From: Bryobacteraceae bacterium
Lineage (GTDB): Bacteria > Acidobacteriota > Terriglobia > Bryobacterales > Bryobacteraceae
Reading direction: 5' to 3'
Length of the DNA stretch: 44,724 nt
NCBI GenBank assembly: GCA_023511855.1
Contig: JAIMAR010000005.1
Coordinates: forward strand, 1-44,724
Position numbers and translations under genes: made by a program. This document shows, piece after piece, positions 14,151 through 30,218 of the stretch. A model generated the notes under the pieces. It was not told where the DNA came from, did not search any database, and saw only the letters and a list, made by a program, of their open reading frames with translations. Each line of letters starts with the position of its first letter. Within the stretch, counting starts at the first letter, position 1.

Positions 14151-15170
14151 ATGCGCGCCTGGAACCGGGCCAAGCTGCTGTGGGGGTACTTCAGGGGCAA
14201 CAGCATCCTGAGCGGCCTGCCCGTCGAGCATATCGTCGAAACCACCGCCAAGTGCAACCTCTATTGTCCGATGTGCCCGCGCGAAACGATCAAGCAGCCC
14301 AAAGAGGACATGCCCGCCGAAATCTTCGACCGGCTCGTTCAGGAAACCGGCCGCTCGGCGGAACACATGATGCTGATCGGGCTGGGCGAACCGTTCCTGG
14401 ATCCGCTGATCTTCGACCGCATCGAATACTGCGCCCGCCATAACATCTCGACCCTGCTTTCCACCAACGGCACCCTGCTGGACGAGAAGGCCTCCGCTCG
14501 CTTGCTCAGCACCCCCATCCGGCACGTCACGCTGAGCTTCGACGGGGCCACCAAGGAAACCTTCGAGTTCTACCGCAAGGGCGCGCGATTCGAGGCCGTA
14601 CGGGACAACTTCGTCCGCTTTGCCCGGATGAAGCACGAGCGGCGCGCCAAAGTACAGGTCGTCGTCCAGATGGTCCGCATGAACGGAAACGCCGCGGAGG
14701 TGGATGAATTCATCCGGTTTTGGAGCGCCGTGCCCGGCGTGGATCAGGTGCGCATCAAGGAGGACGAAACGAACCTCCTGCGTCCGGACGCGCGCCACAA
14801 CCCCTCCGACTGGCGGCATCCCTGCCACTACCTCTGGCGCGGGCCGCTCTACGTCAAGCACAACGGCGACGTCTACCCCTGCTGCCAGAGCTACATGCTC
14901 GGCGGCAAACCCGTAGGCCGCATCGGCGAGCAGCCCCTGGTCCGGATCTGGAATTCGGATGAAATGCGACGCATGCGGCGCTTGCACGTGGAGGGACGCG
15001 CCGGCGAAATCGACGTCTGTTCCCGCTGCTGCACGGTGATTCCGCACCCGCTGCTGGTGGTCGGCAGCCTCCTGTTTCACGGAAGCACTGTCTGCCGCTT
15101 TCTTCCCGCCGTGGAGCGGCTGGCGTATTTCTCGCGCTGGGCTTCGCGCCTGCTGCGGCCCGCGCGTTGA
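14151..15170 (+). CDS. Radical SAM/SPASM-domain protein, function unknown
   Basis: 339 aa. The radical SAM cluster motif is C35-x3-C39-x2-C42 (CNLYCPMC), followed by the GLGEPFLDP glycine motif and a TIM-barrel core (LSTNGTLL, LSFDGATKETFEFYRKG). The C-terminal half (about 222-305) has the cysteine-rich SPASM pattern HPCHYLW, DVYPCCQSY and CSRCC, which would bind one or two extra 4Fe-4S clusters. Such enzymes modify peptides or other substrates. No precursor-peptide gene is visible next door, so the substrate is unknown. TAGAAT at 14130-14135 lies 15 nt before the ATG and is the likely -10. Confidence 0.8.
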   Translation: MRAWNRAKLLWGYFRGNSILSGLPVEHIVETTAKCNLYCPMCPRETIKQPKEDMPAEIFDRLVQETGRSAEHMMLIGLGEPFLDPLIFDRIEYCARHNISTLLSTNGTLLDEKASARLLSTPIRHVTLSFDGATKETFEFYRKGARFEAVRDNFVRFARMKHERRAKVQVVVQMVRMNGNAAEVDEFIRFWSAVPGVDQVRIKEDETNLLRPDARHNPSDWRHPCHYLWRGPLYVKHNGDVYPCCQSYMLGGKPVGRIGEQPLVRIWNSDEMRRMRRLHVEGRAGEIDVCSRCCTVIPHPLLVVGSLLFHGSTVCRFLPAVERLAYFSRWASRLLRPAR

Positions 15171-15647: not shown

Positions 15648-16000
15648 GGGGGCGTAACGGATTCGACGGGATTGAACTGAGGTAAAGAGGCGTGCCGGGT
15701 TCCGAGCTCCCGTAAAACGATCGGAAAACCAAAACTGCCAACACGCAGTTTGCTTACGCTGCTTAATTCGTTAAGCGGCCGCCCCGGCAGCTGCTCCCGC
15801 GCGGCTGCCGTCCGGCGTCATCCCGCGGGATAGGGTGAGGGCTTCTGTCCGGAGCCGTAGGCCGAAACCCAATCGGACTAGGCCGTGGAAGTCATTGCTG
15901 GTACCCGACGCCGCGGCTGAACCTTAGGAACCAGCTACGCACGTAGGCTCTTTGCCGCAGACTTTCTCGGACGCGGGTTCGACTCCCGCCGCCTCCACCA
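15648..16000 (+). ncRNA. ssrA: Transfer-messenger RNA (tmRNA)
   Basis: 353 nt. The 5' end GGGGGCG pairs with the 3' CGCCTCC (one G-T wobble), followed by discriminator A and an encoded CCA, giving a tRNA-like acceptor stem. The start contains the conserved GTAACGGATTCGAC segment, and the T-arm CGGGTTCGACTCCCG lies near 15974-15989. The tag frame reads GCC AAC ACG CAG TTT GCT TAC GCT GCT TAA (15737-15766), giving ANTQFAYAA after the charged alanine and ending in the AA degradation signal. GC-rich inverted repeats after the tag would form the pseudoknots. It rescues ribosomes stalled on broken messages and marks the product for Clp proteolysis. The RNA is one-piece and not permuted. Confidence 0.97.
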
Positions 16001-28572: not shown

Positions 28573-28578
28573 AGGAGG
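28573..28578 (+). promoter_or_regulatory. Consensus ribosome binding site of the Tes-like gene
   Basis: AGGAGG, 8 nt before the GTG at 28587. It is the strongest Shine-Dalgarno in the window and fixes this GTG as the start. Confidence 0.75.
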
Positions 28579-28586
28579 CAAGCAGC

Positions 28587-30218
28587 GTGAGTACGAGCAC
28601 CTTCGCCGCCGCCAAGCGCGAAACCTTCGAGATCCTTCAGCCTGCGGCGACCTACACCGGCTCGCCCATCCGGAGCATCCCCAAAGGCTTGCCCAAAATG
28701 ACCCTCTCGCTGTGCCCGGAGTGCACGCGCAAAATCGAGGCGGTGCTGTTCGAAGAGAACGGCAAGGTCTACATGGAGAAAACCTGCCCGGAGCACGGAC
28801 ACTACCGGGATGTGATCTACTCCGACGCCAAGCTCTACCTCAAAATGGAGGAATGGACCTTCGGCGACGGCCGCGGCGTCTCCAATCCGGCTGTGCCCAA
28901 CGCCACCGAGTGCCCCGATCAATGCGGCTTGTGCTCCATGCACACCAGCCACACCGTGCTGGCCAACGTCGATCTCACCAACCGCTGCAACCTCACCTGC
29001 CCCGTCTGCTTCGCCAACGCCAACACCGCGGGCTATCTTTATGAACCCACGCTAGAGCAGGTCCGGCTCATGTTGCAGACCCTCCGCAACCAGCAGCCGG
29101 TGGCGGGCCGCATCGTCCAGTTCTCGGGCGGAGAGCCGACGATCCATCCGAATTTCCTCGAAATCCTGGCCATGGCCCGCGATATGGGCTTCACCCAGAT
29201 CCAAATCGCCAGCAATGGGCTCAAGCTCACCGATCCGGAGTTCGCTTACGCTTGTAAGGAAGCCGGCCTGCACACGATCTATTTGCAGTTCGACGGGGTC
29301 AGCGACGACATCTACCTGCGCACCCGAGGCGAGCGGCTCATCGAGAAGAAGCTCCAGGCCATCGACAACGTGCGCAAGGCGGGCATGAAGATCTGCTTCG
29401 TGCCCACCATCGTGAAGGGCATCAACGACCATCAGATCGGCGACATCATCCGGCTGGCCATCGACAACATCGACGTGGTCAGCGCGATCAGCTTCCAGCC
29501 GGTCAGTTTCTGCGGCCGCATCTCCAAGGCGGAACTCGAAGCCAAGCGTTTCACCCAGGCGGACTTCGCCCAGGCGGTCATCGACCAGACCGGCATTTGC
29601 CGCCCCATGGAGGACTGGTTCCCGCTGTCGTTCGTGGCGCCCTTCTCCAAGCTGGTGGCCGCGTTGCGCGGCGTGCCCACTCCGACCCTCACCCCTCATC
29701 CGCACTGCTCCATGGGCACCTACCTGTTCGTGGACAAGAAGAAGCGCGCCACCCCGATCACCCGCTTCGTCGACGTCGGCGCCATGCTTCAGGAAATCGA
29801 CATGCTCAGCCGGAAGACCGGCGTGATGCATGTGAAGCTCTGGTCCAAGATCAAGGTCTGGAACTCGCTCCGCAAGCACTTCCATGAAGACCGGGCCCCC
29901 GAAGGCCTGACCTTCGAGCGATTCCTCCAGACCCTGCAAGGCCTGCTCGACAAGCGCTACGGCCGCGGCGAAATGGAAGCCAAGGAGTTCACCTACAAGA
30001 CGCTCATGGTGGCTTCCATGCACTTCATGGATTCCTACAATTACGACGTCGAGCGCGTGAAGCGCTGCGTTATCCACTACGCCGCGCCGGACGGGCGCCT
30101 GTATCCCTTCTGCGCTTACAACGCCGGCCCCACCTTCCGCGAGAAGATCGAGCGGCAGTTCTCGACGCCGCTGGATCAGCAGCCGGAGTTAGTGAAACTG
30201 GCGGGAATGGCGTCCTGA
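28587..30218 (+). CDS. Radical SAM protein of the tetraether lipid synthase (Tes) family
   Basis: 543 aa. A zinc/iron ribbon-like N-terminus, C43-x2-C46 with TCPEH (Cys67), is followed by CPDQCGLCSMHTSHT (Cys109, Cys113, Cys116), and then the radical SAM motif C134-x3-C138-x2-C141 (CNLTCPVC) with SGGEPTIHP. Later cysteines occur in HPHCSMGTYLF and PFCAYN. This order of cysteine motifs is that of the archaeal tetraether synthase family, which joins lipid tails by C-C bonds between sp3 carbons. In Acidobacteriota homologues are suspected to make membrane-spanning lipids such as iso-diabolic acid or branched GDGTs. Product and substrate here are inferred. It stands alone. Confidence 0.78.
   Translation: MSTSTFAAAKRETFEILQPAATYTGSPIRSIPKGLPKMTLSLCPECTRKIEAVLFEENGKVYMEKTCPEHGHYRDVIYSDAKLYLKMEEWTFGDGRGVSNPAVPNATECPDQCGLCSMHTSHTVLANVDLTNRCNLTCPVCFANANTAGYLYEPTLEQVRLMLQTLRNQQPVAGRIVQFSGGEPTIHPNFLEILAMARDMGFTQIQIASNGLKLTDPEFAYACKEAGLHTIYLQFDGVSDDIYLRTRGERLIEKKLQAIDNVRKAGMKICFVPTIVKGINDHQIGDIIRLAIDNIDVVSAISFQPVSFCGRISKAELEAKRFTQADFAQAVIDQTGICRPMEDWFPLSFVAPFSKLVAALRGVPTPTLTPHPHCSMGTYLFVDKKKRATPITRFVDVGAMLQEIDMLSRKTGVMHVKLWSKIKVWNSLRKHFHEDRAPEGLTFERFLQTLQGLLDKRYGRGEMEAKEFTYKTLMVASMHFMDSYNYDVERVKRCVIHYAAPDGRLYPFCAYNAGPTFREKIERQFSTPLDQQPELVKLAGMAS

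Follow-up and report, generated by a model that had tools for sequence, protein, structure and literature searches.

The question raised by this locus is why a bacterium should carry a protein resembling the tetraether lipid synthase (Tes) of archaea, and on which lipids such a protein would act. The gene, tes1, lies in a stretch of 44,724 nt from a Bryobacteraceae genome of the phylum Acidobacteriota (assembly GCA_023511855.1, contig JAIMAR010000005.1), which we refer to at its full length as the window. We find that its product, Tes1, is a member of the Tes family and that in the genomes searched it shows tight linkage with gerA-gerB, a two-gene module predicted to reduce esters to ethers. 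We consider it likely that Tes1 is a bacterial tetraether lipid synthase, the most likely substrate being an iso-branched glycerolipid with Ger-made ethers and the product a branched glycerol dialkyl glycerol tetraether (brGDGT) or an intermediate on the way to it. Past temperatures and soil pH are commonly reconstructed from brGDGTs, whose makers and pathway are unsettled.

Membership of Tes1 in the Tes family

Tes1 scores 598.8 bits on the NCBI curated Tes model NF045702 (cut-off 450), is 45% identical over 498 aligned residues to the Tes of M. jannaschii (MJ0619), matches PDB entry 7tol with an E value of 1.5e-141, and contains the Pfam domains PF04055 (Radical_SAM, E 5.5e-27) and PF23545. 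The gene and its metal-binding and S-adenosylmethionine (SAM)-binding residues are as follows.

28587..30218, plus strand: tes1, Tes-family radical SAM protein of 543 residues with a GTG start, from the open reading frame (ORF) and its translation
28713..28796, plus strand: rubredoxin-like metal site C43, C46, C67 and H70 (MJ0619 C9, C12, C33 and H36), from alignment to MJ0619; Pfam Zn_ribbon_HMPTM
28911..28943, plus strand: N-terminal auxiliary [4Fe-4S] cluster ligands C109, C113 and C116 (MJ0619 C73, C77 and C80), with H119 as candidate histidine, from alignment; invariant in 40 sequences
28986..29009, plus strand: radical SAM motif C134-x3-C138-x2-C141 (CX3CX2C), from Pfam, the MJ0619 alignment and the 40-sequence alignment
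29496..29519, plus strand: SAM-loop residues Q304, S307 and R311 (MJ0619 Q268, S271 and R275), from alignment to MJ0619
29706..29708, plus strand: C374 (in HPHC), cysteine of the C-terminal auxiliary cluster, assigned by alignment; invariant
30018..30113, plus strand: M478 (labile methionine ligand, MJ0619 M439), C494 and C509 (in FCAYN) of the C-terminal auxiliary cluster, from alignment; invariant

Every MJ0619 ligand numbered in Lloyd et al. 2022 (PMC9433317) is conserved in Tes1, as are the SAM-loop residues, and these positions are invariant among 40 aligned homologues; in Tes1, alignment position is the basis for assigning the N-cluster histidine and the cysteines of the C-terminal cluster. 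For the N-cluster of MJ0619 the same paper mentions 'a conserved histidine' without a number, and H119 of Tes1, which aligns with MJ0619 H83, is a candidate for it. The AlphaFold model of Tes1 (pLDDT 86.5) superposes on 7tom over 481 residues with a Z score of 45.0 and a deviation of 2.2 A, and the next structural family after Tes is MoaA at Z 19. Other radical SAM enzymes among the structural matches, such as MoaA and viperin (Z scores up to 19), have the core alone in common with Tes1.

In a tree of Tes proteins with the distant paralogue Tes2 (described below) as outgroup, the archaeal Tes form a single clade (support 100/97) with the window protein outside it. Window Tes1 groups with other Acidobacteriota in a bacterial clade (100/98), and bacterial Tes1 is separated from Tes2 (100/100). 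Bacterial Tes1 taken whole forms a grade, so the ancient Tes transfer may have run in either direction, and because most sequences were gathered by searching with the window protein, the deep branches are weakly informative. The tree supports the placement of the window protein within the bacterial Tes clade rather than as a recent copy from archaea.

We therefore regard membership of the Tes family as confirmed, the resemblance being much too close to have arisen by chance. A sequence-only reading of this DNA had already placed the ORF at these coordinates, listed its cysteines and likened their order to that of archaeal Tes, and it had proposed a phylogeny and a structure prediction as checks. 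The coordinates are right, every cysteine is present, and the ligands map onto MJ0619 by alignment; both checks have now been run, the structure prediction at the level of the fold, with the model adopting the GDGT-MAS fold of 7tom and the tree giving no placement in another radical SAM family.

Linkage of tes1 with gerA and gerB

The gerA product, 1030 aa long, combines two BcrAD_BadFG domains with DUF2229, the marker domain of PlsA/Ger-type reductases, and gerB is a 430-aa gene that follows and overlaps gerA. One report (PMC13274423) gives the 'BB' make-up for reductases validated as glycerol ester reductases, and it is by domain make-up only that we name the module gerA-gerB and assign it putatively to the Ger 'BB' type.

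Our phylum sample comprises 297 Acidobacteriota genomes, in which the Tes model scores split the homologues into two groups: Tes1, at 472-619 bits, in 35 genomes, and Tes2 and others, at up to about 350 bits, with at least one Tes homologue of any kind in 172. DUF2229 is present in 25 of the 35 Tes1-positive genomes as against 45 of the other 262, and gerA in 16 as against 5. In the window's family, where Tes1 is found in 47 of the 237 genomes searched, gerA occurs in 45 of these 47 and in 4 of the 190 without Tes1, counts that include four Tes1 and one gerA contig-edge fragments; among 90%-complete genomes of low contamination the figures are 27 of 28 and 2 of 120 respectively. Raw Fisher p-values for this co-occurrence run from 1e-12 to 1e-41 with kinship ignored, and they overstate the link because independent gains and losses within the family are few. 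Among named genomes, a gerA-like gene at 1e-40 is present in 21 of 25 bacteria with Tes1 and in none of 8 archaea.

The genes can also be physical neighbours. At L072 (Acidobacteriota, family f28) tes1, gerA and gerB lie on one strand, and at L107, from a Gemmatimonadales metagenome-assembled genome (MAG), tes1, one extra gene and gerA-gerB do so, although this clustering may be one event because the two Tes proteins are sisters in the tree. In a member of the window's family (G359, L169) gerA and tes1 are divergent neighbours about 200 bp apart. The extra gene at L107 (6326-7360), between tes1 and gerA, appears by eye to be of the DHH-type phosphoesterase kind.

Bacterial Tes homologues are not themselves a new observation. 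Zeng et al. 2022 (PMC8941075) describe 456 of them, with Koribacter and Solibacter the best bacterial matches, and propose brGDGT synthesis, and Halamka et al. 2022 (PMC10087280) propose from one genome that PlsAR and then Tes act in the brGDGT producer S. usitatus. The suspicion of the sequence-only reading that this gene class joins lipid chains thus stands as a plausible role, but as an idea already in print. What is added here is the genome-scale linkage between Tes1 and gerAB, and a literature search of incomplete coverage found no earlier report of tes-gerAB clustering or genome-wide co-occurrence. We take this linkage to support tail-joining on bacterial ether lipids.

Several observations weigh against this interpretation. 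The window genome does have gerAB, but on a contig other than that of tes1. Mapping presence and absence onto the family's Tes2 tree gives 5-7 changes and 3 informative independent pairs, all of them concordant, with a p value of 0.25 that is not significant by itself. A group of six genomes, f4 (G002, G018, G032, G100, G109 and G118), has divergent Tes proteins that are over the cut-off (472-498 bits), and neither DUF2229 nor GGGPS, the latter a marker of archaeal-type lipid operons discussed below, was found when sought in them. Tes2 is found in nearly every genome of the window's family and is frequent across the phylum, and Tes activity in bacteria has been stated to be unconfirmed (PMC11868695).

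Substrate, product and alternative explanations

By analogy with M. jannaschii Tes, from which both the chemistry and the provisional order of its steps are taken, SAM would be cleaved at the C134/C138/C141 cluster of Tes1 and one lipid tail would lose a hydrogen atom at its tip. The resulting tail radical would then be held through a C-S bond to an [Fe4S4] cluster, of which the C-terminal one (C374/C494/C509, M478) is the likeliest candidate, and the held tail would be coupled tip to tip with a second, forming an sp3-sp3 C-C bond between two lipids. The gerA-gerB module would have turned the ester bonds of an iso-branched bacterial glycerolipid into ethers, the substrate being most likely not an archaeal isoprenoid, and a branched tetraether or its precursor would result. 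GGGPS (PF01884) is below cut-off or absent in 40 of the 42 Tes1-positive genomes searched, the window genome included, and because this host has gerAB and no GGGPS, the likeliest substrate in it appears to be a bacterial ether lipid with iso-branched chains, and the likeliest product a brGDGT. In the MJ0619 crystal structure, density in the pocket was interpreted as two phosphatidic acids from E. coli (PMC9433317); as the archaeal enzyme bound a bacterial phosphatidic acid, bacterial lipids would fit the Tes fold.

These results support the candidate role as a maker of membrane-spanning lipids that the sequence-only reading had put forward. On the lipid itself that reading is refined here, in that an ether lipid from a Ger-type reductase, on the route to brGDGTs, is likelier than ester-bound iso-diabolic acid as the only candidate. 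We also lean, with rather less assurance, towards the broader proposal that brGDGTs in Acidobacteriota and some Gemmatimonadota are made by a core pathway of bacterial Tes1 and GerAB, in which Ger would make the diether and Tes1 would join the tails.

An alternative explanation is that Tes1 joins ester-bound fatty acids to give iso-diabolic acid, with the ether reductase acting later or independently and ether substrates not being needed. The phosphatidic acids in MJ0619 are consistent with this, as is the description of the enzyme Mss, in PMC13274423, as indifferent to ester or ether. However, Tes1 closely tracks gerA, Tes1 is missing from about four fifths of the window's family, and most sampled Acidobacteriaceae have Tes2 only. 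Moreover, the brGDGT producer S. usitatus is reported to make iso-C15 mono- and diethers, for which the authors favour a diether route (PMC10087280). We judge joining at the ester stage to be unlikely.

The place of Tes2 must also be considered, as the window genome encodes both proteins.

C200:19845-21401 of the window genome (L002, L048): Tes2, distant Tes-like paralogue of about 700 aa, 320 bits (below the Tes cut-off)

Tes2 is 34% identical to Tes1 and has residues of the rubredoxin site, the radical SAM motif and the C-terminal cluster in common with it, but lacks the N-cluster cysteines and is far more widespread. It could be the main tail-joining enzyme, with Tes1 carrying out a related reaction on the same lipids; this might be the second join, which turns glycerol trialkyl glycerol tetraether (GTGT) into GDGT, or a cross-link or a different C-C bond. 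Consistent with this, tes1 and tes2 are 0.6-6.2 kb apart in 5 of the approximately 26 genomes that encode both proteins (the chance estimate ignores shared ancestry) and are also neighbours at L097, Tes2 retains the cysteines of both the radical SAM and the C-terminal clusters, and E. aggregans produces brGDGT although its one Tes homologue is a distant one (PMC8941075). Against it, Tes1, unlike Tes2, retains the full set of four archaeal metal sites, and it is Tes1 that tracks gerA. We think such a reversal of roles improbable; with two paralogues present, the work may be divided between Tes1 and Tes2 in more than one way. In the window genome, the gene for a protein of about 1250 aa with the make-up BadFG-BadFG-DUF2229 lies a few kilobases from tes2 (L048:7289-11035), and the same long type lies about 1-3 kb from tes2 in three relatives (G306:C22, G375:C71 and G408:C195).

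The two GGGPS-positive exceptions among the 42 genomes, G264 and G296, carry operons of a different kind.

L060:8839-12154 (G264): tes-GGGPS-UbiA operon, GGGPS adjoining tes, then a UbiA prenyltransferase
L061:7635-10718 (G296): tes-GGGPS-UbiA operon, with polyprenyl synthase and IspH alongside

DUF2229 was sought in both genomes without a match, and their Tes proteins fall inside the archaeal clade, beside a bathyarchaeal Tes. Isoprenoid tetraether lipids are predicted in these hosts, the operons having probably come from archaea by transfer. Most Tes1 in the phylum accompany an ether-lipid module, bacterial or archaeal, f4 being the exception. These operons might suggest that Tes1 in general uses isoprenoid ether lipids of the archaeal type, as its archaeal counterparts do, but the 40 genomes without GGGPS over the cut-off and the archaeal-clade Tes of the two exceptions make this very improbable, and for the window genome, which has no GGGPS, we reject it. 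Weakest of all, and scarcely credible, is an assembly artefact in which an archaeal or otherwise foreign gene was binned into a bacterial genome: the assembly is in 394 contigs with 5.2% contamination, but an archaeal contaminant is rejected because the flanks of tes1 are bacterial and its orthologues many, extending to dozens of relatives.

Genomic setting and comparison with known systems

A strong ribosome-binding site precedes tes1.

28573..28578, plus strand: AGGAGG ribosome-binding site, 8 nt 5' of the tes1 GTG, duplex energy -9.5 kcal/mol

Upstream, on the minus strand, are genes for a TPR protein and QueG, the latter divergent from tes1, and downstream on the same strand as tes1 are dnaG (133 bp away) and rpoD. 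No terminator was found between tes1 and dnaG, and no sigma-70 promoter-like site around tes1 in a search that is uninformative for the host phylum. The same 44.7-kb contig has a tmRNA gene at 15648-16000 (tag ANTQFAYAA), and a second radical SAM domain protein is found in the window at 14238-14717, in a 345-codon frame. The closest named relatives of the tes1 product are from a Bryobacterales MAG (80% identity) and Ca. Solibacter MAGs (about 69-70%), in line with a host from the Solibacter family of Bryobacterales. Neighbourhoods of relatives were examined by targeted tblastn: the closest, L075 (80% identity), keeps the QueG and TPR neighbours, and QueG lies beside tes1 or a tes2-tes1 pair in several (L075, L174 and L175). 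Clustering of neighbourhoods on naive ORF calls gave no conserved partner and mostly spurious antisense ORFs.

The genes flanking tes1 are bacterial chromosome genes, and the bacterial surroundings described by the sequence-only reading hold, as does the bacterial host, with Tes1 itself in the bacterial Tes clade. Other claims need correction. The ribosome site is very strong, yet at least one other in the window is stronger, and Shine-Dalgarno strength is no proof of the constitutive expression that had been suggested. The description of tes1 as stand-alone is right with respect to lipid genes within the window and fails in relatives, where tes1 adjoins tes2 or gerAB.

Together, tes1 and gerAB, which co-occur almost without exception and are clustered in some genomes, make up a concrete genetic marker, and the linkage turns a published hypothesis into the specific, testable proposal of a two-module pathway. 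If this is true, the presence of tes1 and gerAB would predict brGDGT producers from genomes, apart from the Mss route and the tes-GGGPS-UbiA bacteria. The contrast with the archaeal tes-GGGPS-UbiA operons suggests that one family of coupling enzymes may serve two lipid worlds.

Of the known systems, the archaeal Tes or GDGT-MAS (MJ0619, 7tol and 7tom) resembles Tes1 in metal ligands, SAM-loop residues, fold and curated model, whereas Tes1 differs in its 45% identity, its separate bacterial clade, an N-terminal extension of about 34 residues and a host without GGGPS. Mss of Thermotoga and Clostridia is reported to join fatty-acid tails, and, according to PMC13274423, its authors superposed an Mss model on Tes; our comparison of Mss with Tes1 is by description only, and matches of the Tes model in T. 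maritima are weak, with none at 1e-40. The bacterial homologues described from Ca. Koribacter and from Ca. Solibacter usitatus belong to the same phylum, have the same proposed role and are presumably orthologous to the Tes1 of the window.
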